Source: Clostridia bacterium (GTDB lineage Bacteria > Bacillota > Clostridia > Oscillospirales > CAG-272). From it: DNA of 64,000 nt. Below are positions 8,558-26,405 of this stretch, one piece after another. Below the pieces are notes generated by a model. That model searched no databases. It was not told where the DNA came from and saw only the letters and a list, made by a program, of their open reading frames with translations. A program made the translations under genes and the position numbers. Where the stretch lies: contig JAGASL010000020.1 of NCBI GenBank assembly GCA_017621755.1, positions 21,480-85,479 on the forward strand, read 5' to 3'. The stretch's first letter is position 1. The number at the start of each line of letters is the position of its first letter.

Positions 8558-8593
8558 AATCGCTCTCCTTTTCTTTTTTTACCGGAAAGGGAC

Positions 8594-8845: not shown

Positions 8846-8851
8846 ATCTAT

Positions 8852-8880
8852 ATTATACAAACCAAGCGGGTCTTTGTCAA
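8852..8880 (-). promoter_or_regulatory. Sigma-A promoter of the ileS T-box transcript
   Basis: Consensus TTGACA, 17-nt spacer, TATAAT on the minus strand, placing the start at the beginning of the T-box leader. Confidence 0.9.
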
Positions 8881-8930
8881 GTCCTGCACAAAAAAAAGCA
8901 AAAAAATGACATTTTTGCGCAAATATATCG

Positions 8931-8959
8931 TAGACGAACACAATTTTTTATGCTATACT
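8931..8959 (+). promoter_or_regulatory. Possible promoter of the sugar isomerase operon
   Basis: Plus-strand TAGACG, 17-nt spacer, TATACT, about 35 nt before the start at 8995. The -35 is weak. It diverges from the ileS promoter. Confidence 0.5.
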
Positions 8960-8994
8960 GGTGTTACAAGTTCTAAAACTGGGAGGGGATCCTG

Positions 8995-9777: not shown

Positions 9778-9805
9778 TTTTTACATAAAAAAGGAGAACA
9801 ACATC

Positions 9806-10894
9806 ATGGTAGGAAACGTAGTTAAGGTTGGTATCATCGGCTGTGGTGGCATTGCCAACGGCAAGCATATGCCCAGCCTGAAGAAGGTTGCCGATTGTGA
9901 AATGGTCGCCTTCTGCGACATTATTCCCGAAAGAGCCGAGAAGGCAAAGGCCGATTTCGGCACGCCGGATGCCAAGGTGTACACCGATTACAAGGAGCTT
10001 CTCAAGGACGAGAGCATTGACGTGGTGCACGTTTGCACCCCGAACCGCGCGCACAGCTTTATCACGGTAGACGCGCTGCACGCCGGCAAGCACGTTATGT
10101 GCGAAAAGCCCATGGCCATCAACTCGGCCGAGGCAAAGAAGATGCTGGATGCCGCATGCGAAACCGGCAAGCTGCTTTCGATCGGCTACCAGAGCCGCTT
10201 CCGCCCGGATGCCATGTATATGAAGCAGGAGGCTGAGGCCGGCACCTTTGGCGACATCTACTACGCCAAGGCAACCGCCCTGCGCCGCCGTGCCGTTCCT
10301 ACCTGGGGCGTATTCCTCAACGAGTATGAGCAGGGTGGCGGCCCGCTGATCGACATTGGTACCCACGCGCTGGACCTGACGCTGTGGATGATGAACAACT
10401 ACAAGCCGAAGTACTGCGTAGGCACCACCTATCACAAGCTCAACAATGACAAGGACCAGGGCAACTCCTGGGGCAACTGGGATCCTGAGAAGTTCACGGT
10501 TGAGGACAGCGCCTTTGGTTTTGTGGTGATGGAAAACGGCGCGACCATCGTGCTGGAATCCTCTTGGGCGCTGAACATTCTTGACCCGCGCGAGGCTGTT
10601 ACCACCATTTGCGGCACCAAGGCCGGCGGCGATATGAACGACGGTCTGCGCATCAACGGTGTACGCAACGGCCGCCAGTACGTCTTTAAGCCTGATTTCA
10701 AGGCAGGCGGCGCCGCCTTCTTCAGCGGCCAGGGCAACGAGGAGCCGGCAGACCGTGAGGAGAGACTGTGGATCGAGGCCGTTCGCGGTGGCGCGGCACC
10801 GATCACGAAGCCGGAGCAGGCCTACTGCGTGACCCGTATTCTGGAGGGTATTTACGAATCTGCCAAGAGCGGCAAGCCCTATTACTTCGACTAA
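9806..10894 (+). CDS. Gfo/Idh/MocA family oxidoreductase
   Basis: NAD(P)-dependent sugar or polyol dehydrogenase, 362 aa. The N-terminal Rossmann fold begins KVGIIGCGGIANGKHMPSL; the family EKP motif (MCEKPMAINSAEA) and the C-terminal domain with GGGPLIDIGTHALDL are clear. The ATG at 9806 follows AAGGAGAA; an upstream in-frame extension overlaps the isomerase and is rejected. It is probably cotranscribed with the isomerase and possibly, through a weak terminator, with the beta-helix lipoprotein downstream. The substrate is unknown. Confidence 0.88.
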   Translation: MVGNVVKVGIIGCGGIANGKHMPSLKKVADCEMVAFCDIIPERAEKAKADFGTPDAKVYTDYKELLKDESIDVVHVCTPNRAHSFITVDALHAGKHVMCEKPMAINSAEAKKMLDAACETGKLLSIGYQSRFRPDAMYMKQEAEAGTFGDIYYAKATALRRRAVPTWGVFLNEYEQGGGPLIDIGTHALDLTLWMMNNYKPKYCVGTTYHKLNNDKDQGNSWGNWDPEKFTVEDSAFGFVVMENGATIVLESSWALNILDPREAVTTICGTKAGGDMNDGLRINGVRNGRQYVFKPDFKAGGAAFFSGQGNEEPADREERLWIEAVRGGAAPITKPEQAYCVTRILEGIYESAKSGKPYYFD

Positions 10895-10968: not shown

Positions 10969-13900
10969 ATGCGCCATTTACATTGGTTAAAAGTGCTGCT
11001 TTCCCTGTTGCTGGTGATATGCACCTCCTTCCTGCTTTGTGCCTGCCCCATGGCCACCGTGCCCGGCGGCAAGGATACCCCCGGTGGGGATGATAAGCCG
11101 AGCGGTGACGATACCCCCGGTGATGACGATACCCCCGGTGGCAACGATACCCCCGGTGGCGACGATACCCCCGGTGGTGACGATACCCCCACCGTAACGC
11201 CGGAGACCTACGGCAACGGCGCGCCCGTCAAGGGCGGCGGCGCCACGATCGCGGAGGGGGCCTTTGCCCTGACCGCCACGACCTATGACCCGGCCGCAGC
11301 GACCGAGGTCGCTGCCAACGCCTTCTTCCGCACGCATAACAAGCAGCCCGGGCAGGTCTTTCGCGTAAACGATGGCAAGACCGTGACCGTTAGCGGTGCC
11401 GCCAACCAGATCTATAACGGCGGCGGCGCGGTGCTGATCGCCCCGCAGGGCGTGGTGATCGAGGGCTGCGGCAAGGTGACCATCGAAAACGTGGTCATCA
11501 TTGGCTCTGTCACGGTCAAGGGCTGCGAGAGCCTGACCATGGAGCAGGTAGAGATCGTGAGCGAGGGCACCGCCCTGGCGGTGGATGCTGCTACCTCTGG
11601 CTTTCAGATGAACGATTGCCGCCTGAGCGGCAAGACCGCCCTTTCGCTTGATGCTGCCGACAGCGTTATTCTCTATTCCTACCTTTCCTTTACGGAAAAC
11701 GGCCTGGTAGATACTGCTGCCGCCGGCACCAGCCTGCACCACTGCGTGCTGGAGGGTAGCGGCACCGGTATTCAGAGCGTAGCGCGCGCCTGCGATATGC
11801 GTAACAATACCCTGCGCCTGACGCCGGAATCGGTCGGCTTCTCGCTTGGCGCGGGTGTGGTAAACGGCCTGCTGGCACTGAACGTGGTAGAGGGCGCGCA
11901 GACCTCGGTACAGCTGAACGGGGTGGATAACACCGCCGTGATCCTGAATTCCCTGGTATCTGTTGAGGCAAACGATAGCAAGCACCTCTACGTGTGTGAC
12001 AACAGCCTGGGCGGCCGCCTGACGGCGAACAATAACGATTACATCTTGGCCGATGGCAATACCTACCCGGCTGACGGCTTTGACCACGCCACCCTGCAGG
12101 AGGGCAACACCAACCACAATGGCGATGGGCTGACGGACGTCAATGCCCGCCTGGAGGTAGGCGCTGACGAGGCGCTGCTGCCGCACGTGGATAAGGAGCT
12201 GTTTGTGGGTGCGCCGCGTATGGAGGCGGTGAAGGACGTGCTGACCGGCACGGAAACGGCCGTGGCCGCCTACATCTTAGAGCGCAGCCAGACCGAGGAA
12301 TACGTGATCCTGGCCCCCGGCGCCTACAGCACCGGTGTGACAATGGATTTCAATTCTTCGCACAACAATACCAAGATCTACGGCTACGGTGCCTATATCG
12401 AGCGTGATACCGATCTGAGCCGGCAAATGGGCTTTTTCGGTGCCGAAAACATAGCGGTCAAGGGTCTGACGCTCGGCTTTAAGCAGCAATCCTGCGGCCA
12501 GGTCTACGTGCTGGAGAAGCTGGGCTATCAAAACGGCAAGCTGACTGTGCGTGTCATTACCGGTGCCGGCATGATGAACGAATTTGGTAACACCAACACC
12601 AAGTATTACAACACCACCGGCATAGGTACGCAGCGCGCAGGCGCCTTTTACGCCTATTGCGACGCCAACTTCAAGACCATTACCAAGAACAACGTAGCCG
12701 AGGCGCTGCCCACCATGGATATGGAGGTGGCCGACTGGCTGTACGGTATGCTGAAGGTTGGCGACGTGCTGACCAGCAAGGGCTGCAACGGCGGCACCAC
12801 CATGCTGATCACGAATGGCAGCCGCGGCATCAGCTTTACCGATTTCACCCTGTATGGCAACTCGGCCGGTATGGCTTTTGCCGAGACCGACACCCTTTCC
12901 GGCGTGGTCTATAACCGCGTATACGATACCACGCGCAATGGCGAGATCATTGACGAGGCAACCTATAACGCCTACCTGGCCATTGAAGAAAAGTACGGCG
13001 TGGATCTGGAGATCAGCATGGACGATCTCGGCCGCTTCCGCGGCTCGCCCTGCCACATCGGCTCGATCGACGCGACCCACACCACCCGCTGCGCCCAGGG
13101 CTCGCAGGCGACCTCTTGCCTGTTTGAGAACATGTGCGACTATGCCACCAACCAAAACGCCATGCACGCCCGCCTGGCTGAGGTAAAGGATAACGGTGAC
13201 GGCACCGCTACCCTGGTCTACAAGGCAAACCTGGCCGATTACCATTACGCCGTGTACGGTAAGCTGACCAACCCGGTCAACTTCTGCGCCGACTTCAAGG
13301 TAGGCGACCGCGTATTCATCTACACCGCTGCCGGCCAGCTGGTGTGCGACACCCCTGCACTGAGCGCCACCCAGTACCTAGGCTCTGAGAGCTTTTCGTG
13401 GGCTGACCACGGCTTCCCGGAGGCGGGTACCGGCACGGTAGAAAAGCGCTCGGTAACGGTGGATATGGCCTCTATCAACATGGCGGCCATCGCCGGCCTT
13501 GACCTGCGCGACAACCACCACCGTACCGATAACAAGGTGCTGGTGGATAACATGAGCCAGGCCTCTAACGGCTTTAAGTTTGATAACTGCAAGTTCCAGA
13601 ACATTCGCTCGCGCGGTCTCTTGATCAAGGCCTCGGGCGGTACCATTCAGAACTGCACCTTCCGCAACATTGGTATGTCCTGCGCCGCCATTCTGTACGA
13701 GATCTGGTGGGGTGAATCCGGCGTTACCGAGAACATGCTGGTTGACCGCAACCTGATCGACCACACCGGCTTCTTTGAAAACCGCGACAACTACTCGCCC
13801 ATCTCGATCGAGGGTCTTGGCCAGAGCGTGGATGAGGATTACCTGCTGTATAAGAACATTACCATCAGCAACAACAGGATTATCAACCGCACCACCAACT

Positions 13901-14184
13901 ACGCCGTGTATATCAACTCGGCCAAGGACGTAAAGATCATCAACAACTACTTTGGCGAGTTTGTTGGCAACGATTTCACCAATCATACCGAAGCACCGGA
14001 ATCGGCCTCTGCGCCCAAGCCCGTGATCCACATCAACGGCGCGATGAACGTAGAGATCAGCGGCAACCGCTACCCCCTGACCGGCAGCATCCAGGATCAG
14101 ATCGTGGCCGAGCGCAACAAGAACGTCTACGGCTCTGACGTAGAGCTGGACGGCATACCCCTGTTCCCGGATAGATTGAATTGA
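10969..14184 (+). CDS. Surface lipoprotein with right-handed beta-helix domains (paralogue 1, divergent)
   Basis: 1071 aa. The signal peptide ends in the lipobox LCAC (Cys26). A low-complexity stalk follows (about residues 30-70), built from 6-residue units of the TPGGDD type. Two long beta-helix regions come next (many N-x-x-[ILV] and NN turns), the second starting near EEYVILAPGAY. The C-terminal part (FDNCKFQNIRSRGLL, FRNIGMS, WWGESGVTENMLVDRN) recalls GH110-type beta-helix glycosidases, so an enzyme acting on polysaccharide is plausible but unproven. It differs from the other three copies: a 6-residue stalk unit instead of 5, and CDYATNQ (Y725) where the others have CDDATNQ. It lies downstream of the sugar isomerase/dehydrogenase pair. 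Confidence 0.85.
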   Translation: MRHLHWLKVLLSLLLVICTSFLLCACPMATVPGGKDTPGGDDKPSGDDTPGDDDTPGGNDTPGGDDTPGGDDTPTVTPETYGNGAPVKGGGATIAEGAFALTATTYDPAAATEVAANAFFRTHNKQPGQVFRVNDGKTVTVSGAANQIYNGGGAVLIAPQGVVIEGCGKVTIENVVIIGSVTVKGCESLTMEQVEIVSEGTALAVDAATSGFQMNDCRLSGKTALSLDAADSVILYSYLSFTENGLVDTAAAGTSLHHCVLEGSGTGIQSVARACDMRNNTLRLTPESVGFSLGAGVVNGLLALNVVEGAQTSVQLNGVDNTAVILNSLVSVEANDSKHLYVCDNSLGGRLTANNNDYILADGNTYPADGFDHATLQEGNTNHNGDGLTDVNARLEVGADEALLPHVDKELFVGAPRMEAVKDVLTGTETAVAAYILERSQTEEYVILAPGAYSTGVTMDFNSSHNNTKIYGYGAYIERDTDLSRQMGFFGAENIAVKGLTLGFKQQSCGQVYVLEKLGYQNGKLTVRVITGAGMMNEFGNTNTKYYNTTGIGTQRAGAFYAYCDANFKTITKNNVAEALPTMDMEVADWLYGMLKVGDVLTSKGCNGGTTMLITNGSRGISFTDFTLYGNSAGMAFAETDTLSGVVYNRVYDTTRNGEIIDEATYNAYLAIEEKYGVDLEISMDDLGRFRGSPCHIGSIDATHTTRCAQGSQATSCLFENMCDYATNQNAMHARLAEVKDNGDGTATLVYKANLADYHYAVYGKLTNPVNFCADFKVGDRVFIYTAAGQLVCDTPALSATQYLGSESFSWADHGFPEAGTGTVEKRSVTVDMASINMAAIAGLDLRDNHHRTDNKVLVDNMSQASNGFKFDNCKFQNIRSRGLLIKASGGTIQNCTFRNIGMSCAAILYEIWWGESGVTENMLVDRNLIDHTGFFENRDNYSPISIEGLGQSVDEDYLLYKNITISNNRIINRTTNYAVYINSAKDVKIINNYFGEFVGNDFTNHTEAPESASAPKPVIHINGAMNVEISGNRYPLTGSIQDQIVAERNKNVYGSDVELDGIPLFPDRLN

Positions 14185-14198
14185 TCCTTACCCATAAA

Positions 14199-14233
14199 AG
14201 AAGGCGTTTTGCCCGTAGGGCAAAACGCCTTCT
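14199..14233. terminator. Bidirectional terminator
   Basis: 16-bp perfect stem AGAAGGCGTTTTGCCC/GGGCAAAACGCCTTCT with a 3-nt loop between the convergent lipoprotein 1 (+) and SDR epimerase (-). T-tracts are weak. Confidence 0.7.
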
Positions 14234-14235
14234 GC

Positions 14236-15186
14236 TTATCTCTTGAAAAGTGCTACCTCGGTGCGGATCCCCTGCTCCACCGTGGCAAAATCAGCCGGGG
14301 TAAGACCGCTGACGCGCATGACCTTGCTGCTATCAAGATCGCGGTCGAAGGCGCGGTCATAGCGCCACATGATCTCCCGCTTGCTGCGCGCGGTCTCGCT
14401 GCTTGCAAAATAGGTCTCTTCATCCACCCACTCTACCTGCAGGCCGATGACCTTGCAGTAGGCCTCTGCCACCTCGCCCCAGGTCATGCCGTGGCCAGAG
14501 TAGATCGAGAAGGCCTCTCCGATCGCCGCCGGCTTAAAGAGCAGATTGGCGATCAGCTTGCCGGAATTGCCTGCCCAATCCAGCCCGGCGTGCAGCCCCT
14601 TGGCTGCCAGCGGCAAGGGCAAGGGCTTGCCACTCTCAGCATACCGAAGCACCTCGTCCCCGGAATGCAGCAAAAGATCCAGCCGGTATTGCGAAAAGGA
14701 GATGACCGGGCGCACGATCGTCCAGTGCTCGCCCACATGCTCGCGGAACAGAAAATCCTCGCATATCGCCTTGCTGACACCGTAGCGGTCATGCTCCATC
14801 AGCCAGGCGTTATCGGCATACACCTCGTGCAGGCGAGGCGCCTCCTCGGTCACGGGATGCATCTCGTTGGCGTACACGCGGTAGGAGGAAAGAAAGATCA
14901 GATGATCGGTGTTTTTGATCAAAAGGCCGTAGGCTTTCTTATACTCCTCCGGGTCTTGATAGTGCAAGAAGTTAACGATGCCATCGTAGTGGTTTTCCGC
15001 AAACAACGAAGAAAGCAGCTCTTCGGTTGCGTAGCCTTGCACAAAGCGCAGTCGCTCATGGTCAGCTACCTTTTCCTCAGGGCAGACCACATCCACGTAG
15101 CAGCCCAGCCGCAGCAGCTCGCGCCCCGTATAGGTGCCCAGCGTACCGCCGCCGGCGATCAGCAGGACTTTTTTACTTTCATACAT
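14236..15186 (-). CDS. NAD-dependent epimerase/dehydratase family protein (extended SDR)
   Basis: 316 aa. The N-terminal nucleotide-binding loop is VLLIAGGGTLGTYTGREL, a variant of the usual TGxxGxxG. SSYRVYAN and the catalytic-type YGVSK motif at mid-length place it among extended SDRs acting on nucleotide sugars or related substrates. GGGGGGAA precedes the ATG. It lies between beta-helix lipoproteins 1 and 2 and has its own promoter and shared terminators, so it is a monocistron. The atypical glycine loop (AGGGTLG) makes isoflavone-reductase-like or unconventional substrates possible. Confidence 0.8.
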   Translation of the reverse strand: MYESKKVLLIAGGGTLGTYTGRELLRLGCYVDVVCPEEKVADHERLRFVQGYATEELLSSLFAENHYDGIVNFLHYQDPEEYKKAYGLLIKNTDHLIFLSSYRVYANEMHPVTEEAPRLHEVYADNAWLMEHDRYGVSKAICEDFLFREHVGEHWTIVRPVISFSQYRLDLLLHSGDEVLRYAESGKPLPLPLAAKGLHAGLDWAGNSGKLIANLLFKPAAIGEAFSIYSGHGMTWGEVAEAYCKVIGLQVEWVDEETYFASSETARSKREIMWRYDRAFDRDLDSSKVMRVSGLTPADFATVEQGIRTEVALFKR

Positions 15187-15212
15187 ATAGCTTCCCCCCG
15201 TTTTTTATTTTC

Positions 15213-15241
15213 ATGATAGCATACTGACAGTGAGATGACCA
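15213..15241 (-). promoter_or_regulatory. Promoter of the SDR gene
   Basis: Minus-strand TGGTCA, 17-nt spacer, TATCAT with an extended TGC before the -10. The match is moderate. Confidence 0.5.
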
Positions 15242-15274
15242 TATAGAATTCTCTATAACACCGGGTAATATTCT

Positions 15275-15311
15275 GTAAAAAATACGGGCGATGGAAATCC
15301 ATCGCCCGTAT
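15275..15311 (-). terminator. Terminator after beta-helix lipoprotein 2
   Basis: 14-bp stem ATACGGGCGATGGA/TCCATCGCCCGTAT followed on the minus strand by a T-run. Confidence 0.85.
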
Positions 15312-15323
15312 GCTTTTGGTTGA

Positions 15324-18300
15324 TCAATCCTCGTTGTCGGGAACCAGGGGCTCTCCATTCTTCTCAACGTCCGCGCCGTAAACGTTCTTGTTCCGCTCGG
15401 CCACGATCTGCGTCTGAATGGTGCCGGTCTCGGGGAAGCGGTTCCCCGTGATCTTCACGTTCATGGCACCGTTGATATGGATCACCGGCTTCGGATTCTC
15501 CTTGCTTTCGGGTGCCTCGGTATGATTGGTGAAATTATTGCCCACAAACTCACCGAAATAGTTATTTTCAACGGTGATGTCCTTGGCCGAGTTGATATAG
15601 ATCGCATAATCGGTCGTACGATTGATGATCTTATTATTGGTAATGGCGATATTCTTATAAAGCAGGTAATCCTCTGCCACCGAGGAGCCAAGACCGTAGA
15701 TCGATACCGTTGCGTAAAGATCCTGGTTCTTGAAATAGCCGGTATGGTCAAAGAGGTTCCGATCGATCACCATGTTCTCGGTAATGCCCGATTCGCTGTA
15801 GCGCACCTCAAAAAGGATGGCGGCGCAGGCCATACCGATATTGCGGAAGGTGCAGTTCTGAATGGCGCCGTCAGATGCCTTGACAAGAAGCCCGCGCGAG
15901 CGAATGTTCTGGAACTTGCAGTTGTCAAAGGTAAAGCCGTTAGATGCCTGGCTCATATTGTCAATACGCACCTTATGGGTGTTTTCATGGCGGTTGTCAG
16001 CCAGATTAAAGCCCTCCAGCGCTGCAAAATTGATAGCCTCTGTCTTCACGGTCACCTTTTTCAGCGTGGTGGTCGACGTATCGTCAATAATCCCCTCCGC
16101 TGCCCAGTCGATCGCAAGCGTGCCGGCGCCGAGAGTCTTTGTAAGCGCCTCGGTATCGCAGATAAGCTGACCGGTGGGAGAATAGACGAACACACGGTCG
16201 CCTACTGCAAAGTCTGCGCAGTAATCGCTGGCTGCATAATAGTGATTATCATAGGAATAGGTAGAGAAGGTACCCTTATAGATCAGGGTAGTCGTTCCAT
16301 CCCTATTGTCAACGACCTCGTGTATACGGCTGTGGAAATGCCCCTGGTTGGTCGCATCGTCACACATGTTCTCAAACAGGCAGAAGGTCGCCTGCGAGCC
16401 CTGGGCGCAGCTGACCGTGTGCGTGGCATCGATCGAGCCGATATGGCAGGGCGAGCCGCGGAAGCGGCCAAGATCATCCATGCTGATCTCCAGATCTACG
16501 CCGTAATTCTCCTCCAGCGCCAGATAGGCGTTATAGGTCGACTCATCGATCACAAAGCCGTTTTGCGTGGTATCGCATACGCGGTAAAAGACCGTGCCGC
16601 CCTTGGTTTTCTCTTCAATGAAGGCGAAGCCGCCGGCATTCCCATACAGATTGAAATCATAGAACGCAATGCCACTGCTCCCTACGCCGACCGCCACCGT
16701 TCTGCCACCGTTGCTTGCGCGGCAGGTCAGCACGTCACCCTTGGCCAGCATCTCGTATACAGAGGGAAGAACCTCCATCAGCATGGTGGGAACAGCCGTG
16801 GTATCATCCTTGGTGATCTTCTCAAAGTTGGTATCGCAGTAGGCATAGAAGGTGCCCATTCTCTGCGCGCCCATGCCGGTGGTGTTGAAATACTTGGTGT
16901 TCGTATTGCCAAAATCATTCATCATGCCGGCACCGGTAACCACGCGTAGGGTATTATTCTCCAGCTTCTCCAGCACGTAGACCTGGCCGCAGGACTGCTG
17001 CTTAAAGCCCAGCGTCATGCCCTTGATCACAATGTTTTCGGCATCTTGATAATTCATCATCTGCCCAAGATCGACCTGCCGCTCCATATAAACGCCGTAA
17101 GCATACACGGTGGTGTTGCTATGCGCCGCACGGAAGGAGAGTGCCTTCTTGTTCATGTAGGCCCCGGGGGCAACGATGACGTAATCATCTGTCTGGCAAT
17201 GGGCCATGATATAGGCTTCCATGCTGGAGGGCTCTGTAGCCAGCACGTCCTTGACGTACTCCTTGCGCGCCATCCCCACGAACAGATCCTTATCGGGATG
17301 CGGCAAAAGCGACTCATCGGCACCCACCTCAGGGCGGGCATTCACGTCCATCAGGTTGTTGCCGTTGTGGTTTTGGTTGCCGGCCTGCACGGTTGCGTGG
17401 TCATATTCGTCATCCGGGTAGGTGTTACCGTCGGCAATGAAATAATTGTTGTTGTTTGCCGTCAGGCGACCGCCCAGGCTGTTATCCACAATATACAGAT
17501 GGCGGTTGCCCTCTGCCTCTACCGAAACGCCGCGGTTGAGCACAACAGATACGTTATTCACCCCACGCAGCGCGATCGAGCGCTGGGCACCGGTAATATC
17601 GTTCAGCGCAACCAGGCTGTTCAGCACGTCGCCCTCTAAGAGGATACCGGTGGAAGAAGCATCCAGCTTCATGGTGTTGCTGCGGTAGGCAGATTCAGAG
17701 GCCGAGGAGGTGATAGCGGTGCCACTTCCCTCAAACATACAGCTCTGCACCGTACTGCCCTGTGCGGCGGTATCAACGATGCCCTTCTCGGTGAAGGCAA
17801 AATAGGAATTGAGGATGGCACTTTCAGGCGCGGCCAGCTCGATCGCCGTTTTGCCGGTCAGGCGGCAATCGTTCATCTTCAGCTTGCTGGAGGCAGCATC
17901 GACGGCAAGGGCGGTGCCCTCGCTCACGATCTCGACCTGCTCTAAGGTCAGGCCAGTCACCCCGTTCACCGTTACCGAGCCGATCACGATCAGATTACGC
18001 AGGGTAATACCGCTGCCGCCCTTGATCTCAAGCCCCTTGGGGGCGATCAGGATCGCACCGCCGCCATCATAGGTCTGGTTTGCCGCGCCGCCAAGAGAGA
18101 CGGGCTTATCATCGCTGACGCGAAAGACCTTGCCGGGCAGCTTCACGGCCGAGCGGAAGAAGGAACCTGCCTTGGTCTCTTCGGCGCTTGCCGGGTCATA
18201 AGCGGTAGCGGTCAGGGCAAAGGCCCCCTCGGCAATGGTAGCACCGCCACCCTGGACGGCAGCGCCGTCTGCATAGGTGATCGGCGTAGGCGGCGCAGGC

Positions 18301-18566
18301 GTATCCTCACCACCGGGGGTCTCGCCACCGGGGGTCTCACCACCGGGCGTTTCACCGCCGGGGGTCTCACCGCCGGGGGTCTCGCCACCGGGGGTCTCAC
18401 CGCCGGGGGTTTCACCGCCGGGGGTCTCACCGCCGGGGGTTTCACCGCCGGGGGTCTCACCACCGGGCGTTTCGCCGGTGCCGCCACAGGCGCAAAGTGA
18501 CCATACCATACCAAGCGCCAGGCAAAGGCATAGCAGGGTACGTAACCATTGTTTGTTCTTCATCAT
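15324..18566 (-). CDS. Surface lipoprotein with right-handed beta-helix domains (paralogue 2)
   Basis: 1080 aa from the ATG at 18566 (MMKNKQWLRT), which has an AGGAG site; a longer frame to 18608 overlaps the promoter region. A lipoprotein signal ends in LCAC. The stalk has 11 consecutive 15-nt units encoding the pentapeptide TPGGE (about 18308-18473). Then come beta-helix domain 1, a middle domain starting near DDYVIVAPGAY, the conserved block FRGSPCHIGSIDATH with MCDDATNQ, and the C-terminal helix with FDNCKFQNIRSRGLL. It is expected on the outer face of the membrane as a polysaccharide-binding or -degrading protein; the GH110-like resemblance of the C-terminal half is from memory. Own promoter and terminator. 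Confidence 0.85.
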   Translation of the reverse strand: MMKNKQWLRTLLCLCLALGMVWSLCACGGTGETPGGETPGGETPGGETPGGETPGGETPGGETPGGETPGGETPGGETPGGETPGGEDTPAPPTPITYADGAAVQGGGATIAEGAFALTATAYDPASAEETKAGSFFRSAVKLPGKVFRVSDDKPVSLGGAANQTYDGGGAILIAPKGLEIKGGSGITLRNLIVIGSVTVNGVTGLTLEQVEIVSEGTALAVDAASSKLKMNDCRLTGKTAIELAAPESAILNSYFAFTEKGIVDTAAQGSTVQSCMFEGSGTAITSSASESAYRSNTMKLDASSTGILLEGDVLNSLVALNDITGAQRSIALRGVNNVSVVLNRGVSVEAEGNRHLYIVDNSLGGRLTANNNNYFIADGNTYPDDEYDHATVQAGNQNHNGNNLMDVNARPEVGADESLLPHPDKDLFVGMARKEYVKDVLATEPSSMEAYIMAHCQTDDYVIVAPGAYMNKKALSFRAAHSNTTVYAYGVYMERQVDLGQMMNYQDAENIVIKGMTLGFKQQSCGQVYVLEKLENNTLRVVTGAGMMNDFGNTNTKYFNTTGMGAQRMGTFYAYCDTNFEKITKDDTTAVPTMLMEVLPSVYEMLAKGDVLTCRASNGGRTVAVGVGSSGIAFYDFNLYGNAGGFAFIEEKTKGGTVFYRVCDTTQNGFVIDESTYNAYLALEENYGVDLEISMDDLGRFRGSPCHIGSIDATHTVSCAQGSQATFCLFENMCDDATNQGHFHSRIHEVVDNRDGTTTLIYKGTFSTYSYDNHYYAASDYCADFAVGDRVFVYSPTGQLICDTEALTKTLGAGTLAIDWAAEGIIDDTSTTTLKKVTVKTEAINFAALEGFNLADNRHENTHKVRIDNMSQASNGFTFDNCKFQNIRSRGLLVKASDGAIQNCTFRNIGMACAAILFEVRYSESGITENMVIDRNLFDHTGYFKNQDLYATVSIYGLGSSVAEDYLLYKNIAITNNKIINRTTDYAIYINSAKDITVENNYFGEFVGNNFTNHTEAPESKENPKPVIHINGAMNVKITGNRFPETGTIQTQIVAERNKNVYGADVEKNGEPLVPDNED
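18308..18473 (-). repeat. 15-nt minisatellite encoding (TPGGE)x11 stalk
   Basis: Eleven near-identical 15-nt units, varying mainly at third codon positions (ccaccgggggtctcg, ccgccgggcgtttca and similar on the plus strand). The unit length is a multiple of three, so copy-number change keeps the frame. Confidence 0.95.
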
Positions 18567-18621
18567 GTTGCTCCTTTTTGGCCAAGTCGTATACGCCTTT
18601 TCGGCCATGGTTCTTACCTAC

Positions 18622-18650
18622 ATTATACCATATATCCCCTCCTCTGGCAA
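18622..18650 (-). promoter_or_regulatory. Promoter of beta-helix lipoprotein 2
   Basis: Minus-strand TTGCCA, 17-nt spacer, TATAAT. The same arrangement in nearly the same sequence precedes paralogue 3. Confidence 0.8.
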
Positions 18651-18693
18651 GTTATCGAGGGTGAGAATTTTTTCTCTGTTTTTTGTTCAACAT

Positions 18694-18731
18694 GCACAAA
18701 AGGGCGCACCTGCCGTAGCAGGTGCGCCCTT
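18694..18731 (-). terminator. Terminator after beta-helix lipoprotein 3
   Basis: 12-bp stem GGGCGCACCTGC/GCAGGTGCGCCC with a 4-nt loop, then TTTTGTG on the minus strand. Duplicated almost exactly at 22053-22080. Confidence 0.85.
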
Positions 18732-18742
18732 GGGGTTATGCC

Positions 18743-21700
18743 TTAATCAATATCATCCGGGATCAGGGGCATACCGTCCATCTCTACGTCAGAGCCGTAG
18801 ACGTTCTTATTGCGCTCGGCATGCACGTAATCCTCTATGATCGGATCGGGCTGTGAATACTTGTTGCCCGAGATCTCGATGTTCATGGCACCGTTGATGT
18901 GAATGGCCGGCTTCGGATTATCGGGGGTCTCGGGGTCTTCGGGGTGGTTGGTGAAGTTGTTGCCCACGAAGCTGCCGAAATCGTTATTGAGGATCTTGAC
19001 GTCCTTGGCAGAGTTGACGTACACGGCGTAGTTGGTGGTGCGGTTTCTGATCACGTTGTTGGAGATCACGATGTTCTTATAGAGCAGGTAATCCTCTTCT
19101 ACAGACGAGCCAAGGCCGGTGATCGAAACGGTCGCATACAGATCCTGGTTTGCAAAATAGCCCGTGTGGTCAAAGAGGTTGCGGTCAACGAGCAGATCCT
19201 CTGTCACGCCCGATTCGCCCCAATAGATCTCATACAGAATGGCACCGCAGGACATACCAATGTTGCGGAAGGTGCAGTTCTGGATCACACCGCCCGAGGC
19301 CTTGATCAACAGGCCGCGCGAACGAATGTTCTGGAACTTGCAGTTATCAAACCGGAAGCCGTTAGAGGACATGTTCATATTATCAATAAGCACCTTGTTC
19401 GTGCTGCGGTGGTGGTTATCCTTCAGGTCAAAGCCCTGCAGCGCGTCAAAATTCACATCCTCAGTCTTAACGGTGACAGAGCGCTTCTCTACCTTGCCGT
19501 TGCCAAAGCCATTGCCATAGCCGTGGTCCTTCCAGGCAAAGGTCTCTGTGCCGAGCACCGCGGTAGCGGTTAGAGCCGTGGTATCACAAACCAGCTGCCC
19601 CTTGGAGGTGTATACGTACACACGGTCACCAACCTTGAAGTTGGAGCAGAAGCCGGTGGGATCGACAGGCTTTTTGTAATAACCGTACGAGTATTCGGAA
19701 AGGTTGCCCTTGTAAATAATGGTGGTGGTACCGTCACCGTTATCCTTCACCTCTGCCAAGCGGCCGTGCGTGGCGTTTTGGTTGGTAGCATCGTCGCACA
19801 TATTCTCAAACAGGCAGAAGGTAGCCTGCGAGCCCTCGGCACAGCGGGTGGTATGGGTCGCATCGATCGAGCCGATGTGCGCGGGCGAGCCGCGGAAGCG
19901 GCCGAGATCGTCAATGCTGATCTCCAGATCCACGCCGTACTGCTCCTCCAGCGCGAGATAAGCGTTGTAGGTCGCCTCGTCAATGATAACGCCGTTTTGC
20001 GTGGTATCGGCTACGCGGTAGTAGGTGGTGGCGCTCAGCGCACCTCCTTCGGTAAAGGCAAAGCCCGCGGCGTTGCCGTAAAGCGTTACGTCAATGAAGC
20101 TGACGTTTTTACATCTGGGGCCTACGGTCATGGTCGTCCAGCCGTTGGAGGCACGGCAGGTCAGAATATCACCCACGGCAATCATGTTGTATTGCGCCGG
20201 GCCGCACAGCATCTTCATCGTGGGCACGGGGGTGCTATCATCCTTATCGATCTTGCTGAAGCTGGTATCGCAATAGGCGTAGTAGGTGCCCATGCGCTGC
20301 GCACCCATACCGGTGGTATTGAAGCGGGTGACGTTCGTGTTACCAAAGTCGTTGATCATGCCCGCGCCGGTAACCACGCGCAGGGTATTCCCCCCCAGCT
20401 TTTCCAGCACGTAGACCTGGCCGCAGGATTGCTGCGCAAAGCCGAAGGTCACACCCTTAAAGGAGAGATTCTCTGCATCATAGAAGCCGTTGATGCCGTT
20501 CAGCCCGGCATACTGCTCGATATACGCGCCATAGCCGTAAACGGTGGTATTGCTATGCGCCTTCTCCATATTAAAGGTGGTATTCAGCTTATAAACACCG
20601 GGGGCTAAGATCACGTAATCCTCAGCCGCGGCTACGTTGCGCATGTATTTATCAATCAGGGCATCGCCTTCGTAAAGCACGTCCTTCACCGTCTCACGGC
20701 GCTCCATGCCCACGAACAGATCCTTATCCACGTGCGGGAGCAGCGCCTCGTCGGCACCGACCTCCGGTCGGGCATCCACGTCCATCAGGCTATTGCCGTT
20801 GATGTTCTGATTGCCGGACTGCACGGTGGTATGGTCGTACTCGTCATCCGGCGTTTCGTTGCCATCCGCCAAGAAATAATTGTTATTATTGGCCGTCAGA
20901 CGGCCGCCCAGGCTGTTATCGCAGATATACAGGTTACGGCTATCGTTTGCCTCGATCGAAACGGCGCTGTTAAGGATCACGGCGGTGTTATGCACACCGG
21001 TAACCGTGATCGAGCTTTGGGCGTTTTCGATCACGTTCAGCGCTACCAGGCCGTTTTTCACACCGGCGGCCAATACGATGCCGGTATCGGCCTCGTTCAT
21101 CGTCAGCGTGTTGCCGCGATATACGGCATCGGCGGCGGTGGTGGTAATGCCGGTGCCGCTACCCTCTAACACACAGTTGCGCAGGGTGGTGCCGGCCGTA
21201 GCGGTATCTACCAGGCCGTTTTCCGTAAAGGCGAGGTAGGAATGCAGGATGGCACTTTCAGGCGCGGCCAGCTCGATCGCCGTTTTGCCGGTCAGGCGGC
21301 AATCGTTCATCTTCAGCTCGCTGGAGGCGGCATCGACGGCAAGGGCGGTGCCCTCGCTCACGATCTCGACCCGCTCCAGCGTAACGGCAGAGCTGCCCTT
21401 GACCGTCACGGGGCCGATCACGATCAGATCGACCAGGGTAAGCTCGTGGCAACCTTCGATCACCAGGCCCTTGGGCGCGATCAGCACGGTCCCCTTGCCA
21501 TCGTAGGTCTGGCCCGAGGAGCCGCTGATCGTAACCGGCTTGTCGTCGCTGACGCGGTAGATCTTATCCGGCCCCTTGGTAGCCGAGCGGAAGAAGATAG
21601 CAGCCTTGACCTCCTCGGCGTTTGCCGGGTCATAGGTGGTAGCGGTCAGGGCAAAGGCGCCCTCGGCAATGGTGGCACCGCCACCCTTGACGGCAGCACC

Positions 21701-21940
21701 GTTGCCATAGCGTTCCGGCGTGGGCAGAGCGGGCGTATCCTCACCGCCGGGGGTCTCACCACCGGGGGTCTCACCACCGGGGGTCTCACCGCCGGGCGTT
21801 TCACCACCGGGGGTCTCACCGCCGGGGGTCTCGCCGCCGAGCGTTTCGCCGGTGCCGTCGCAAGCGCAAAGTGACCATACCATGCCAAGCGACAGGCAAA
21901 GGCACAGCAGGGTACGTAACCATTGTTTGTTCTTCATCAT
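18743..21940 (-). CDS. Surface lipoprotein with right-handed beta-helix domains (paralogue 3)
   Basis: 1065 aa. Signal peptide and LCAC lipobox as in paralogue 2, then a short stalk of 7 pentad units, the last with Leu for Pro (TLGGE). Beta-helix domain 1 (about residues 65-400) is nearly identical to paralogue 4. The sequence then diverges sharply after MERRETVKD and becomes near-identical again from about the FRGSPAHIGSIDATH block to the C-terminus (YSQPDPIIEDYVHAERN). The putative Asp-Asp site MCDDATNQ is intact. Own promoter at about 21973-22001 and terminator at 18694-18731. Likely extracellular carbohydrate-active or -binding protein; the activity is not established. Confidence 0.85.
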   Translation of the reverse strand: MMKNKQWLRTLLCLCLSLGMVWSLCACDGTGETLGGETPGGETPGGETPGGETPGGETPGGETPGGEDTPALPTPERYGNGAAVKGGGATIAEGAFALTATTYDPANAEEVKAAIFFRSATKGPDKIYRVSDDKPVTISGSSGQTYDGKGTVLIAPKGLVIEGCHELTLVDLIVIGPVTVKGSSAVTLERVEIVSEGTALAVDAASSELKMNDCRLTGKTAIELAAPESAILHSYLAFTENGLVDTATAGTTLRNCVLEGSGTGITTTAADAVYRGNTLTMNEADTGIVLAAGVKNGLVALNVIENAQSSITVTGVHNTAVILNSAVSIEANDSRNLYICDNSLGGRLTANNNNYFLADGNETPDDEYDHTTVQSGNQNINGNSLMDVDARPEVGADEALLPHVDKDLFVGMERRETVKDVLYEGDALIDKYMRNVAAAEDYVILAPGVYKLNTTFNMEKAHSNTTVYGYGAYIEQYAGLNGINGFYDAENLSFKGVTFGFAQQSCGQVYVLEKLGGNTLRVVTGAGMINDFGNTNVTRFNTTGMGAQRMGTYYAYCDTSFSKIDKDDSTPVPTMKMLCGPAQYNMIAVGDILTCRASNGWTTMTVGPRCKNVSFIDVTLYGNAAGFAFTEGGALSATTYYRVADTTQNGVIIDEATYNAYLALEEQYGVDLEISIDDLGRFRGSPAHIGSIDATHTTRCAEGSQATFCLFENMCDDATNQNATHGRLAEVKDNGDGTTTIIYKGNLSEYSYGYYKKPVDPTGFCSNFKVGDRVYVYTSKGQLVCDTTALTATAVLGTETFAWKDHGYGNGFGNGKVEKRSVTVKTEDVNFDALQGFDLKDNHHRSTNKVLIDNMNMSSNGFRFDNCKFQNIRSRGLLIKASGGVIQNCTFRNIGMSCGAILYEIYWGESGVTEDLLVDRNLFDHTGYFANQDLYATVSITGLGSSVEEDYLLYKNIVISNNVIRNRTTNYAVYVNSAKDVKILNNDFGSFVGNNFTNHPEDPETPDNPKPAIHINGAMNIEISGNKYSQPDPIIEDYVHAERNKNVYGSDVEMDGMPLIPDDID
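21740..21853 (-). repeat. 15-nt minisatellite encoding a 7-unit stalk
   Basis: Seven 15-nt units of the same family as at 18308-18473, encoding TPGGE pentads with one TLGGE. The copy number differs from the other paralogues (11 and 9). Confidence 0.93.
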
Positions 21941-21972
21941 GTTTCTCCTTTTTTGCCATGATTCTTGTATGC

Positions 21973-22001
21973 ATTATACCATAAAATCCCCCCTCTGGCA
22001 A
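21973..22001 (-). promoter_or_regulatory. Promoter of beta-helix lipoprotein 3
   Basis: Minus-strand TTGCCA, 17-nt spacer, TATAAT; a duplicated copy of the promoter at 18622-18650 with the same flanking sequence. Confidence 0.8.
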
Positions 22002-22044
22002 GTTATCGAGGGTGAAAATTTTTTCTCTGTTTTTTGTTCAACAT

Positions 22045-22081
22045 GCACAAAAGGGCGCACCTGCTGCAGCAGGTGCGCCCT
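22045..22081 (-). terminator. Terminator after beta-helix lipoprotein 4
   Basis: 12-bp stem GGGCGCACCTGC/GCAGGTGCGCCC with loop TGCA (a perfect palindrome), then TTTTGTG on the minus strand. Confidence 0.85.
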
Positions 22082-22093
22082 TGGGGTTATGCC

Positions 22094-25000
22094 TTAATCA
22101 ATATCATCCGGAATCAGGGGCATACCGTCCATCTCTACGTCAGAGCCGTAGACGTTCTTATTGCGCTCGGCATGCACGTAATCCTCTATGATCGGATCGG
22201 GCTGTGAATACTTGTTGCCCGAGATCTCTACGTTCATGGCGCCGTTGATGTGAATGGCCGGCTTTGGATTGTCCACCGATTCAGGCTCGTTCAGCGGAAC
22301 GCCGAAGTCGTTACCTACGTACTCGCCAAAGTGGTTGTTGATGATCTTGACGTCCTTGGCAGAGTTGACATACACGGCGTAGTTGGTGGTGCGGTTTCTG
22401 ATCACGTTGTTGGAGATCACGATGTTCTTATAGAGCAGGTAATCCTCTTCTACAGACGAGCCAAGGCCGGTAATCGAAACGCTGGCGTAGAGATCGTCGC
22501 GCATTGCGTTATGAAAGTAGCCCGTGTGGTCAAAGAGGTTACGGTCGATCAGCATATTCTCTGTCACGCCCGTTTCGCCCCAATAGATCTCGTACAGCAT
22601 AGCAGCGCAGGCCATACCAATGTTGCGGAAGGTGCAGTTCTGGATCACACCGCCCGCGGCACAAATCAGCAGACCGCGCGAGCGGATGTTCTGGAACTTG
22701 CAGTTATCAAACCGGAAGCCGCTAGAGGCCATGCTCATGTTGTCAATAAGCACCTTGTTATCTGCACGGTGGTGGTTATCCTTCAGGTCAAAGCCCTGCA
22801 GCGCGTCAAAATTCACATCCTCGGTCTTAACGGTGACAGAGCGCTTCTCTACCTTGCCGTTGCCAAAGCCGTCACCATAGCCGTGATCCTTCCAGGCAAA
22901 GGTCTCGGTGCCGAGCACCGCCGTAGCGGAGAGGGCCATGATATCACAAACCAGCTGCCCCTTGGAGGTGTATACGTACACACGGTCACCAACCTTGAAG
23001 TTGGAGCAGAAGCCGGAGGGATCGACAGGCTTTTTGTAATAGCCGTACGAAAATTCAGAAAGGTCGCCCTTGTAGATCATGGTGGTGGTACCGTCACCGT
23101 TATCCTTCACCTCATCCAAACGGGCGTGCTCAGTGTTTTGGTTGGTGGCATCGTCACACATATTCTCAAACAGGCAGAAGGTAGCCTGCGAGCCCTGGGC
23201 ACAGCGGGTAGTGTGGGTAGCATCTTGCGAGCCGATGTGCGCGGGCGAGCCGCGGAAGCGACCAAGCTCATCGATCTCTACCTCTAAATCAACACCGTAC
23301 TTCTCTTCCAGCGCGAGGTAGGCGTTGTAGAGCTCTTCGGAAATGATCTCGCCACTGCGGGTGGTATTGCATACGCGATAGTAGGTGGTAGCGCTCAGCG
23401 CATCCTGCTCTACGTAGGCAAAGCCGGAGGCGTTACCGTAGATATTGAAGTCGATAAACTTGACGTTCTTGGTGTTGGTATAGATGCCAATGGTGGTACC
23501 GCCGTTTACGGCACGGCAGGTGAAGATATCGCCCTTGCGATAGATCTCGTACCAGTACTTGGAAACCTCCATCCTCATAACCGGAACGCCCTCGTCCTCA
23601 GGCAGCTTCTGAATGCTGTTGAAGTCGGCATCGGCATAGGCGTAGAAGGTGCCCATTCTCTGTGCGCCTATACCGGTGGTATCGAAATACGTCGTATTGG
23701 TATTGCCAAACTCGTTCATCATGCCGGCACCGGTCACCACCAGCAGGTAGTACTTGCCACCCGTGGCGGGCAGCTTATCCAGCACGTAGACCTGACCGCA
23801 GGACTGCTGCTTGAAGCCGATGGTCATGCCCTTGATGGTCACGTTCTCTACCGCGTTATAGTTCATCAGCTGGCCAAGGCCGGACTGGCGCTCCATGTAT
23901 ACGCCGTAGGCGTAGATGGTGGAATTGCTATGCTCAGCACGAAGGGCCATGTTGGTATCGGTCTTGTAGGCACCGGGGGCGAGGATGACGTATTCATCGG
24001 TCTTACAGTGCTCAAGAATATAGCTGGCAATGCCAAGCTGCTCCTTGTCCATCAGATCCTTGACGGTCTCACGGCGCTCCATGCCCACGAACAGATCCTT
24101 ATCCACGTGCGGAAGCAGCGCCTCGTCGGCACCCACCTCGGGGCGGGCATCCACGTCCATCAGGTTGTTGCCGTTGTGGTTTTGGTTGCCGGTCTGCACG
24201 GTGGTATGGTCGTACTCGTCATCCGGCGTTTCGTTGCCATCCGCCAGAAAATAATTGTTATGATTGGCCGTCAGGCGGCCACCCAGGCTGTTATCGCAGA
24301 TATACAGGTTGCGGCTATCGTTTGCCTCGATCGAAACGGCGCTGTTGAGGATCACGGCGGTGTTATGCACACCGGTCACCGTGATCGAGCTTTGGGCGTT
24401 TTCGATCACGTTCAGCGCTACCAGGCCGTTTTTCACACCGGCGGCCAATACGATGCCGGTATCGGCCTCACGCATCGTCAGCGTGTTGCCGCGATATACG
24501 GCATCGGCGGCGGTGGTGGTAATACCGGTGCCGCTACCCTCTAACACGCAATTGCGCAGGGTGGTGCCGGCCGTAGCGGTATCTACCAGGCCGTTTTCCG
24601 TAAAGGCGAGGTAGGAATGCAGAATGGCACTTTCAGGCGCGGCCAGCTCGATCGCCGTTTTGCCGGTCAGGCGGCAATCGTTCATCTTCAGCTCGCTGGA
24701 GGCAGCATCGACGGCAAGGGCGGTGCCCTCGCTCACGATCTCGACCCGCTCCAGCGTAACGGCAGAGCTGCCCTTGACCGTCACGGGGCCAATCACGATC
24801 AGATCGACCAGGGTAAGCTCGTGGCAACCTTCGATCACCAGCCCCTTGGGCGCGATCAGCACGGTTCCCTTGCCATCGTAGGACTGGCCCGAGGAGCCGC
24901 TGATCGTAACAGGCTTATCGTCACTGACGCGGTAAATCTTATCCGGCCCCTTGGTAGCCGAGCGGAAGAAGGTCGATGCCTTTGTCTCCTCGGCGTTTGC

Positions 25001-25342
25001 CGGGTCATAGGTGGTAGCGGTCAGGGCAAAGGTCCCCTCGGCAATGGTGGCACCGCCACCCTTGACGGCAGCGCCGTTGCCATAGCGTTCCGGCGTTGGT
25101 AGAGCGGGCGTATCCTCACCACCGGGGGTCTCGCCACCGGGCGTTTCGCCACCGGGCGTTTCGCCACCAGGGGTCTCGCCGCCGGGCGTTTCACCACCGG
25201 GCGTTTCGCCACCAGGGGTCTCGCCACCAGGGGTCTCGCCACCGGGGGTCTCGCCTGTGCCGCCGCAGGCGCAAAGTGGCCATACCATACCAAACGCCAG
25301 GCAAAGGCATAGCAGAGAGCGCAGCCAGGTTCGATTGTTCAT
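22094..25342 (-). CDS. Surface lipoprotein with right-handed beta-helix domains (paralogue 4)
   Basis: 1082 aa from the ATG at 25342 (MNNRTWLRSLLC) after an AAGGAGA site; the longer frame to 25414 runs into hprK and is rejected. Lipobox LCAC, 9 pentad stalk units (about 25120-25255), then beta-helix domain 1 nearly identical to paralogue 3, a private central domain (about 24060 down to 23360) and a shared C-terminus. MCDDATNQ is intact. Only 37 nt separate it from the hprK stop and no terminator is visible there, so it may be cotranscribed with HPr kinase. Function as for the other copies: surface polysaccharide processing or binding, inferred only. Confidence 0.85.
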   Translation of the reverse strand: MNNRTWLRSLLCLCLAFGMVWPLCACGGTGETPGGETPGGETPGGETPGGETPGGETPGGETPGGETPGGETPGGEDTPALPTPERYGNGAAVKGGGATIAEGTFALTATTYDPANAEETKASTFFRSATKGPDKIYRVSDDKPVTISGSSGQSYDGKGTVLIAPKGLVIEGCHELTLVDLIVIGPVTVKGSSAVTLERVEIVSEGTALAVDAASSELKMNDCRLTGKTAIELAAPESAILHSYLAFTENGLVDTATAGTTLRNCVLEGSGTGITTTAADAVYRGNTLTMREADTGIVLAAGVKNGLVALNVIENAQSSITVTGVHNTAVILNSAVSIEANDSRNLYICDNSLGGRLTANHNNYFLADGNETPDDEYDHTTVQTGNQNHNGNNLMDVDARPEVGADEALLPHVDKDLFVGMERRETVKDLMDKEQLGIASYILEHCKTDEYVILAPGAYKTDTNMALRAEHSNSTIYAYGVYMERQSGLGQLMNYNAVENVTIKGMTIGFKQQSCGQVYVLDKLPATGGKYYLLVVTGAGMMNEFGNTNTTYFDTTGIGAQRMGTFYAYADADFNSIQKLPEDEGVPVMRMEVSKYWYEIYRKGDIFTCRAVNGGTTIGIYTNTKNVKFIDFNIYGNASGFAYVEQDALSATTYYRVCNTTRSGEIISEELYNAYLALEEKYGVDLEVEIDELGRFRGSPAHIGSQDATHTTRCAQGSQATFCLFENMCDDATNQNTEHARLDEVKDNGDGTTTMIYKGDLSEFSYGYYKKPVDPSGFCSNFKVGDRVYVYTSKGQLVCDIMALSATAVLGTETFAWKDHGYGDGFGNGKVEKRSVTVKTEDVNFDALQGFDLKDNHHRADNKVLIDNMSMASSGFRFDNCKFQNIRSRGLLICAAGGVIQNCTFRNIGMACAAMLYEIYWGETGVTENMLIDRNLFDHTGYFHNAMRDDLYASVSITGLGSSVEEDYLLYKNIVISNNVIRNRTTNYAVYVNSAKDVKIINNHFGEYVGNDFGVPLNEPESVDNPKPAIHINGAMNVEISGNKYSQPDPIIEDYVHAERNKNVYGSDVEMDGMPLIPDDID
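25120..25255 (-). repeat. 15-nt minisatellite encoding a 9-unit stalk
   Basis: Nine 15-nt units encoding TPGGE pentads. Synonymous patterns differ from the 11- and 7-unit copies, implying independent expansion or unequal exchange. Confidence 0.93.
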
Positions 25343-25379
25343 CACGTTCGTCTCCTTATGAGTATTATGTATATAGGAT

Positions 25380-26348
25380 TCACCCTTTGGCCGGTGCTGC
25401 CGCATCGATCTCATCCTGCGACATGCCCATCTGCGCCATCAGGCGGCGATTAAACTCCTCAGCCGTGTTATAGCCCATCATCTTTTGGCGGTGGTTCATA
25501 GCGGCGATCTCCAGCACCACGGCCATATTACGGCCGGGGCAGACCGGCAGCGTGATCGAGGGGATCTGCACGCCAAGAATATCGGTGGTCTCGCTGTCAA
25601 GGCCCAGGCGGTCATACATCTTGCCGTTTTCCCACGGCTCAAGATTGACGACCAGCTCGATCTTGGTGGTGTTTTCTACCGAGCCCATACCAAAAAGGCG
25701 GCAAACGTCTACAATGCCAATGCCGCGCAGCTCTACGTAGTGGCGAATGATCTCGGGGGCCGAGCCAACCAGGGTCTTAGAGGACACGCGCTTGATCTCT
25801 ACGGCATCGTCTGCGATCAGGCGGTGGCCGCGCTTGAGCAGCTCGATGGCCGTTTCGCTTTTACCAATGCCGCTTTCGCCCAGCAGCAAAAGCCCCTCGC
25901 CATACACGTTGACCAGCACGCCGTGGCGCGTGATGCGCGGTGCCAGCGCCACGTTCAGATAGGAGATCAGCGTGGCCATAAAGTCACTGGTGCCGCGCTT
26001 GGTGCGCAGCAGCGGAATATGGTATTTCTCTGCCAGCGTCTTCATCTCGGCAAAGACCTCAAGACCCGTGGTCACCACCACGCCGACCGGGCTGGCGGCG
26101 AAAAATTTGGCTATGCTTTCATAGCGCTGCTCATCCGGCAGCTGCTGTAGGTACAGGTATTCTACCTTACCAATGATCTCTAATCTTGCTTTTTCAAAAT
26201 GGTCAAAAAAGCCCACCAGCGGCAAGCCGGGGCGGTTGACCTGGGTCGAGCAGATCTGGATCTTTTCTGCCTCCATCGGCAGATAGATCGCCTCCAGCTT
26301 GTGCTCACGAATCACCTCAGACAGCGAAACGCTGTAAACGTCCTCCAT
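25380..26348 (-). CDS. hprK: HPr kinase/phosphorylase
   Basis: Phosphorylates and dephosphorylates HPr on Ser46, the sensor step of carbon catabolite repression. It is 322 aa from the ATG at 26348. The -10 of its promoter overlaps an upstream in-frame ATG at 26378, so the shorter start with its GGGAGGG site is chosen. Walker A GESGIGKSE is at about 157-165, the catalytic-type His at 142 (RHGVLV), Asp pair 180-181 (LIADDAVE), and the family signature LRGIGIVDV at about 208-216. No lgt or uvr genes follow as in Bacillus; a beta-helix lipoprotein gene follows directly. Confidence 0.95.
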   Translation of the reverse strand: MEDVYSVSLSEVIREHKLEAIYLPMEAEKIQICSTQVNRPGLPLVGFFDHFEKARLEIIGKVEYLYLQQLPDEQRYESIAKFFAASPVGVVVTTGLEVFAEMKTLAEKYHIPLLRTKRGTSDFMATLISYLNVALAPRITRHGVLVNVYGEGLLLLGESGIGKSETAIELLKRGHRLIADDAVEIKRVSSKTLVGSAPEIIRHYVELRGIGIVDVCRLFGMGSVENTTKIELVVNLEPWENGKMYDRLGLDSETTDILGVQIPSITLPVCPGRNMAVVLEIAAMNHRQKMMGYNTAEEFNRRLMAQMGMSQDEIDAAAPAKG

Positions 26349-26376
26349 AAGCCCTCCCATATTCGTTTTTTCTTTC

Positions 26377-26405
26377 ATTATAGCCGAAGTTTTCTAAAAA
26401 GTAAA
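26377..26405 (-). promoter_or_regulatory. Promoter of hprK
   Basis: Minus-strand TTTACT, 17-nt spacer, TATAAT; its predicted start excludes the farthest upstream ATG of the hprK frame. Confidence 0.65.

Follow-up and report, generated by a model that had tools for sequence, protein, structure and literature searches.

Four related genes in a 64,000-nucleotide stretch of a Clostridia bacterium genome (assembly GCA_017621755.1, contig JAGASL010000020.1; the whole stretch is called the window) probably encode surface-anchored, mostly active exo-alpha-galactosidases that have been diversified by duplication and recombination. This reading draws on sequence comparison, structure prediction and analogy with solved enzymes of family GH110. 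The four genes, here copies A to D, are intact open reading frames, one on the plus strand and three in tandem on the minus strand. Their products are far more alike than expected by chance (identity to copy C: D 83%, B 68%, A 65%) and all four carry the motifs GRFRGSP and QNIRSRG, making them paralogues. Each protein opens with a hydrophobic N-terminus followed by a lipobox cysteine, as judged by motif and by eye, and is predicted to be lipid-anchored at the surface. A Pro-Gly-acidic stalk, encoded by tandem units of 15 or 18 bases according to Tandem Repeats Finder (TRF), is predicted to lift the protein through the wall. The paralogy, the lipobox, the stalk and the motif blocks had all been named in the original prediction, and each is found in all four copies. 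A short stalk of the same style is also present in a predicted lipoprotein nuclease (Endonuclea_NS_2) at window positions 40638-41693 (-), and stalk-like matches precede other proteins elsewhere in the genome.

Likeness to GH110 and the active site

The AlphaFold2 model of copy C has two beta-helices (predicted local distance difference test, pLDDT, 95.1; predicted template modelling score, pTM, 0.93), as the original prediction expected, and its modelled catalytic core is a right-handed parallel beta-helix. Searching with a profile of the family, we found solved GH110 enzymes (9beh, E 6e-15; 7jw4, 3.8e-10; 8pvs, 8.2e-10; 9i4f, 2.7e-7). The best 15 Foldseek chains for the C-terminal half are all GH110, with fold alignments spanning 507-523 residues. 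Profile search, profile-profile comparison, fold search and retained active-site residues agree with the earlier hint at GH110, and we file the C-terminal half with this family by sequence, predicted fold and catalytic residues. Like the GH110 exo-alpha-1,3-galactosidases PdGH110B, AmGH110A, PpaGal and AgaBb, the window proteins have a predicted beta-helix fold, three catalytic aspartates at matching spacing and most of the galactose pocket. Unlike them, they are fused behind a second beta-helix, a stalk and a lipid anchor, and they belong to a set of 17 diverged copies in one genome that includes a mosaic copy; their identity to the solved enzymes is just 12-19%. The published GH110 core is flanked by two small beta-barrel domains, and two GH110 proteins are named for Bacteroides fragilis (PMC12002104).

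The N-terminal beta-helix of copy C, modelled alone (pLDDT 94.2), resembles many beta-helices and falls in no clear family. In Foldseek, the adhesin PfbA takes ranks 1 and 2 (E 9.7e-6). PfbA, phage tailspikes and alginate epimerases are set apart from the window proteins by Foldseek E values of 9.7e-6 or worse; many unrelated families tie, and none of the three has a sequence match at E ≤1 in the family profile search. Judging from the model, binding and spacing are both possible roles for this domain. Scans of single sequences against Pfam and NCBIfam returned merely the generic Beta_helix, above cut-off for A and B only, or matches below cut-off. The option of a polysaccharide lyase, also raised by the original prediction, was dropped: the sole lyase-like Pfam match, K1-lyase_N, scores 16.1 and 12.1 bits against a cut-off of 27.

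The genome also holds a second GH110-like group of three tandem genes of about 570 amino acids (L043:3562-8704). It resembles the family in its profile match (E 5.6e-22) and in keeping the DD, RxR and WxE positions, and differs in being half as long, with no stalk, no second beta-helix and, by eye, no signal peptide.

In PdGH110B, Asp-344 is the acid and Asp-321 and/or Asp-345 the base, and the residues around the sugars are Asn-85, Arg-265, Asn-348, Arg-451, Arg-453, Glu-480, Trp-486 and Glu-488 (PMC7939477). Arg-451 belongs to the +1 subsite and the other seven to the galactose pocket. Three catalytic aspartates are likewise assumed for PpaGal (PMC12002104). The HMMER alignment to 7jw4 shows that the spacing 321-344-345-348 equals 693-716-717-720 in copy C. 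Across 74 alignment rows, the equivalents of Asp-321 and Asp-344 are kept in every row, and those of Asp-345 and Glu-488 in 73 each. Within the window's own genome, Asp-321, Asp-344, Asn-348, Arg-451, Arg-453 and Glu-488 are present in 17/17 copies and Asp-345 in 16/17. The Glu-480 site holds 12 Glu and 5 Asp, the Trp-486 site 15 Trp and 2 Tyr, and the Arg-265-like site 15 Arg, a Lys in copy A and a Gln in one other copy. The catalytic domains of these 17 copies are 32-76% identical (median 38%, 136 pairs), and six of the ten active-site positions fall among the 57 invariant columns of 639 (P 6e-5); catalytic positions are kept far better than the domain as a whole. Of 25 near relatives from named genomes (L009-L033), 21 passed the script's filters (L022, L029, L031 and L033 were excluded). 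In these 21, the first five positions are kept throughout, and the other five show gaps in two rows and a change in three.

Given the predicted GH110 fold and the retention of nearly all catalytic residues, inverting exo-alpha-galactosidase activity is likely for most copies. Once exported and lipidated, the enzyme would stay outside the cell on its stalk, and there the GH110-like pocket would take the terminal alpha-galactose of glycans; galactose is the presumed pocket sugar because most pocket residues are kept. By analogy with PdGH110B, Asp-716 (copy C numbering) would protonate the leaving group and Asp-693 and Asp-717 would activate water. Duplication, divergence and recombination may then alter what is accepted beyond the terminal sugar.

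Copy number, distribution and the mosaic copy D

The local expansion noted in the original prediction is real and larger than thought. In the metagenome-derived genome (2.38 Mb, 68 contigs), the catalytic region is present in at least 17 copies, 4 in the window and 13 outside it. Four of the outside copies are cut at contig ends, N-terminal pieces lie at the ends of contigs C37 and C52, and two tandem copies of 2,071 and 1,891 amino acids (L041:3463-15596) have a different N-terminus and extra C-terminal sequence. We surveyed the genus, the taxonomic family and the order, scoring the best 11 or 2 candidates per genome. The protein family is found at E ≤1e-20 in only 4 of 69 genomes of the genus, the window's own included. 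In the taxonomic family, 7 of 295 sampled genomes match (four at ≤1.7e-297 and three partially, at about 1e-41 to 1e-43), and in the order 7 of 394 match, namely the window's genome and six distant ones. Five named genomes other than the window's, reached through loci, hold between 4 and 22 matches each, fragments included: RGIG4068 (11), RGIG4257 (4), SIG650 (22, with 12 on one contig), SIG688 (8) and E19 bin191 (7). From identical match coordinates we infer that three of them belong to the same genus and two to another genus of the taxonomic family. The distribution across the genus is thus patchy. Two record titles give roe deer caecum and colon.

One related genome holds a frame of 3,271 amino acids. 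Other families of the order have more distant relatives (L049, L058-L062 and L064-L066), open frames of about 750-940 amino acids whose matches cover only parts of the GH110-like half and of the region preceding it.

Sequence comparison shows copy D to be a mosaic: residues of about 418-679 (C numbering) follow a copy on contig C29, and most of the rest follows its neighbour C. In 50-residue windows, base identity between D and C is 91-99% over residues 51-400, 59-79% over 401-700 and 85-98% over 701-1065; between D and the C29 copy it is 89-95% over 451-650, 84% over 651-700 and 54-78% elsewhere. Of the 954 informative sites, 653 agree with C and 301 with the C29 copy. Residues 418-679 make up the best C29-like segment (230 of 259 sites), and its score of 217 compares with at most 49 in any of 2000 permutations. 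It begins close to the domain boundary (about residue 411) and stops immediately ahead of the GRFRGSP block (680). In a test on third codon positions in the window's genome, 9 of 136 pairs outscored every one of 300 permutations, with D and the C29 copy as the top pair (0.93 inside, 0.53 outside). Since D is a patchwork of two other copies, the bacterium could likely trim a wider range of sugars as a result of such exchange.

New in this analysis are the size of the family, its patchy occurrence, the mosaic copy and the fact that the catalytic residues are almost completely retained. The earlier suggestion that the system may be undescribed holds only within the open-licence PubMed Central papers that were searched.

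Weighing the alternatives

Several observations weigh against an alpha-galactosidase family shaped by recombination. Single-sequence searches recover GH110 only marginally (E 0.0013 and 0.016), identity to the solved enzymes is low, and several unrelated beta-helices reach a similar Z (≤29.2) across about 270-340 residues. In the 74 rows, Asn-348 is kept in 67 (Leu in 7), Arg-451 in 67 (changed in 7) and Arg-453 in 69 (changed in 5), and the Trp-486 site holds 59 Trp and 15 Tyr. The match to Arg-265 comes from alignment alone and the equivalent of Asn-85 was not located, leaving seven of the eight sugar-contact positions alignable and mostly kept. The mosaic test on the tandem run of SIG650 found 0 of 36 pairs (9 of 12 copies passed the filter), where it may have less power because these copies are more diverged; recombination is established in the window's genome only. 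Finally, genes near three of the copies look like enzymes that oxidise glycosides at C3 and could point to other glycosides. The oxidoreductase before A closely resembles DgpA (9m3d, E 1.3e-128; 7xr9, 6.7e-123), a gene near a copy on contig C22 is DgpA-like (6.2e-66), and one near the C29 copy is glucuronide-3-dehydrogenase-like (3.6e-94). DgpA oxidizes glycosides at C3 (PMC10539306, PMC11239390). Moreover, the genome has 21 PF01408 matches, and 5 of them are no more than about 4 kb away from family copies, against 0.55 expected by a hand estimate (Poisson 3e-4, or 2e-3 for four places), a distance limit set after seeing the data. These neighbours and the low identity would suit proteins that keep the GH110 fold and machinery for a sugar or linkage other than alpha-1,3-galactose, with plant glycosides that the neighbouring enzymes process as one example. 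We consider this unlikely, as the galactose-holding Asn-348, Arg-451, Arg-453 and Glu-488 are retained in every copy of the genome, and the Glu-480 and Trp-486 sites hold only Glu or Asp and Trp or Tyr.

Surface anchoring, many copies, a mosaic member and the rank of PfbA for the N-terminal beta-helix are also what would be expected of non-catalytic variable surface proteins (adhesins, glycan binders or decoys) on a GH110 scaffold, with recombination serving antigenic variation. Copy A lacks one putative base: it is the lone exception at Asp-345 among the 74 rows, with Tyr at that position (codon 13141-13143) in addition to its Lys at the position aligned with Arg-265. Within the main reading as well, it stands out as the likeliest member to be changed or inactive, and it may serve as a binding protein. 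For the family as a whole, non-catalytic proteins seem improbable, given how much better the catalytic positions are kept than the domain, and given that no silent or broken cassette was seen among the 17 copies, all those not cut by contig ends being open reading frames. Assembly artefacts, finally, might inflate the copy number and create the mosaic in a genome of 68 contigs, with contig ends inside copies on C52, C15, C55, C30 and C37. We regard this as very improbable: the shared tracts are not identical (D and C29 copy 89-95%, D and C 85-99%), and five other assemblies carry multiple matches each. D itself is unlikely to have arisen from this assembly alone: protein P0002 is identical to it over the aligned columns, and in the cluster of P0002 the longest contig measures 153,694 bases rather than the 85,479 given for the window. 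We thus retain mostly active exo-alpha-galactosidases as the probable reading.

Feature coordinates, neighbours and implications

Table 1. Positions of the copies, their parts and adjacent features in the window.
Feature	Position	Strand	Basis or remark
DgpA-like Gfo/Idh/MocA oxidoreductase	9803-10894	+	ends 74 bases before A
Copy A	10969-14184	+	1071 amino acids from ATG at 10969; mechanical open reading frame opens at 10768
Lipobox LCAC of A	11035-11046	+	motif and by eye
Stalk repeat of A	11074-11190	+	TRF, 18-base unit
Copy B	15324-18608	-	1094 amino acids, or 1080 from inner Met
Stalk repeat of B	18306-18467	-	TRF, 15-base unit, 10.8 copies
Lipobox LCAC of B	18486-18497	-	motif and by eye
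Promoter-like site 5' of B	18622-18650	-	TTGCCA-N17-TATAAT, 11/12 matches
Palindrome TTGTGCA-N3-TGCACAA	18683-18699 and 22034-22050		upstream of promoters
Copy C	18743-21940	-	1065 amino acids; modelled by AlphaFold2
GH110-like half of C	18746-20710	-	residues 411-1065, about 650 residues
Catalytic block of C	19790-19864	-	Asp-693 to Asp-716/717
N-terminal beta-helix of C	20780-21631	-	residues 104-387
Stalk repeat of C	21740-21847	-	TRF
Lipobox LCAC of C	21860-21871	-	motif and by eye
Promoter-like site 5' of C	21973-22001	-	TTGCCA-N17-TATAAT, 11/12 matches
Copy D	22094-25414	-	1106 amino acids, or 1082 from Met at 25342
C29-like segment of D	23264-24064	-	C residues 418-679
Stalk repeat of D	25115-25255	-	TRF, 15-base unit, 9.4 copies
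Lipobox LCAC of D	25265-25276	-	motif and by eye
HPr kinase	25380-26378	-	37 bases before D (Met at 25342)

The neighbourhood is as originally described, with sugar-catabolic genes and an HPr kinase beside the copies. The same-strand genes before A (window 8102-10894, +) encode an unmatched 297-amino-acid protein, a xylose-isomerase-like TIM barrel and the DgpA-like oxidoreductase; together the three resemble a pathway for the C3 oxidation of glycosides, possibly of C-glycosides. Elsewhere the genome has two matches each to GH29, sulfatase and galactokinase-like proteins. GH110 is among the families over-represented in yak faeces compared with the rumen of cow and camel (PMC7547465), and excerpts of a paper on ruminant carrageenan mention GH110 once, in CarPULs (PMC13168452). 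Neighbours, other genome matches and this GH110 literature fix no substrate.

Promoter-like sites number 12 in the region against 9.4 (standard deviation 3.1) in shuffles; with the count near the shuffle level, only the high match count (11/12) of the sites before B and C stands out. The palindrome upstream of these promoters occurs at 24 places in the genome with at most two mismatches, against 3 for a reversed control. Eleven places have no more than one mismatch, and six of these lie just before family copies, one of them before the stalk-coding piece at the end of C52 and another before the inferred start of the copy at C64:1157-3685. Other places are found ahead of unrelated genes (an elongation-factor-G-like gene, for example), and we did not use the palindrome as evidence for an operator of a glycan regulon; within the window alone, its 5 matches are not above the 3.48 expected by chance. 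The window also contains a Gut-1 RNA (RF01706, 43387-43457, -), whose 50.3 bits narrowly exceed the gathering score of 50, and a perfect 27-base tandem repeat of 2.9 copies (35480-35556).

A bolder proposal, which we put forward tentatively as possible though less likely than not, is that Clostridia carry a many-copies-or-none repertoire of surface exo-glycosidases that builds new enzymes by recombination. The part exchanged between unlinked copies would be the first half of the GH110 domain, which runs from the domain boundary up to the block immediately preceding the catalytic aspartates; the catalytic block itself would remain unchanged. If true, this would be a combinatorial glycan-trimming system, an antigenic repertoire in its logic yet catalytic. 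If the alpha-galactosidase reading is true, at least 17 diverged surface versions in one lineage would give it a stock of specificities to draw on. They would offer a way to test how the shuffling of catalytic-domain parts could broaden glycan use in bacteria, and would also show that large enzyme families can consist of proteins whose annotation says no more than hypothetical or 'right-handed parallel beta-helix'.
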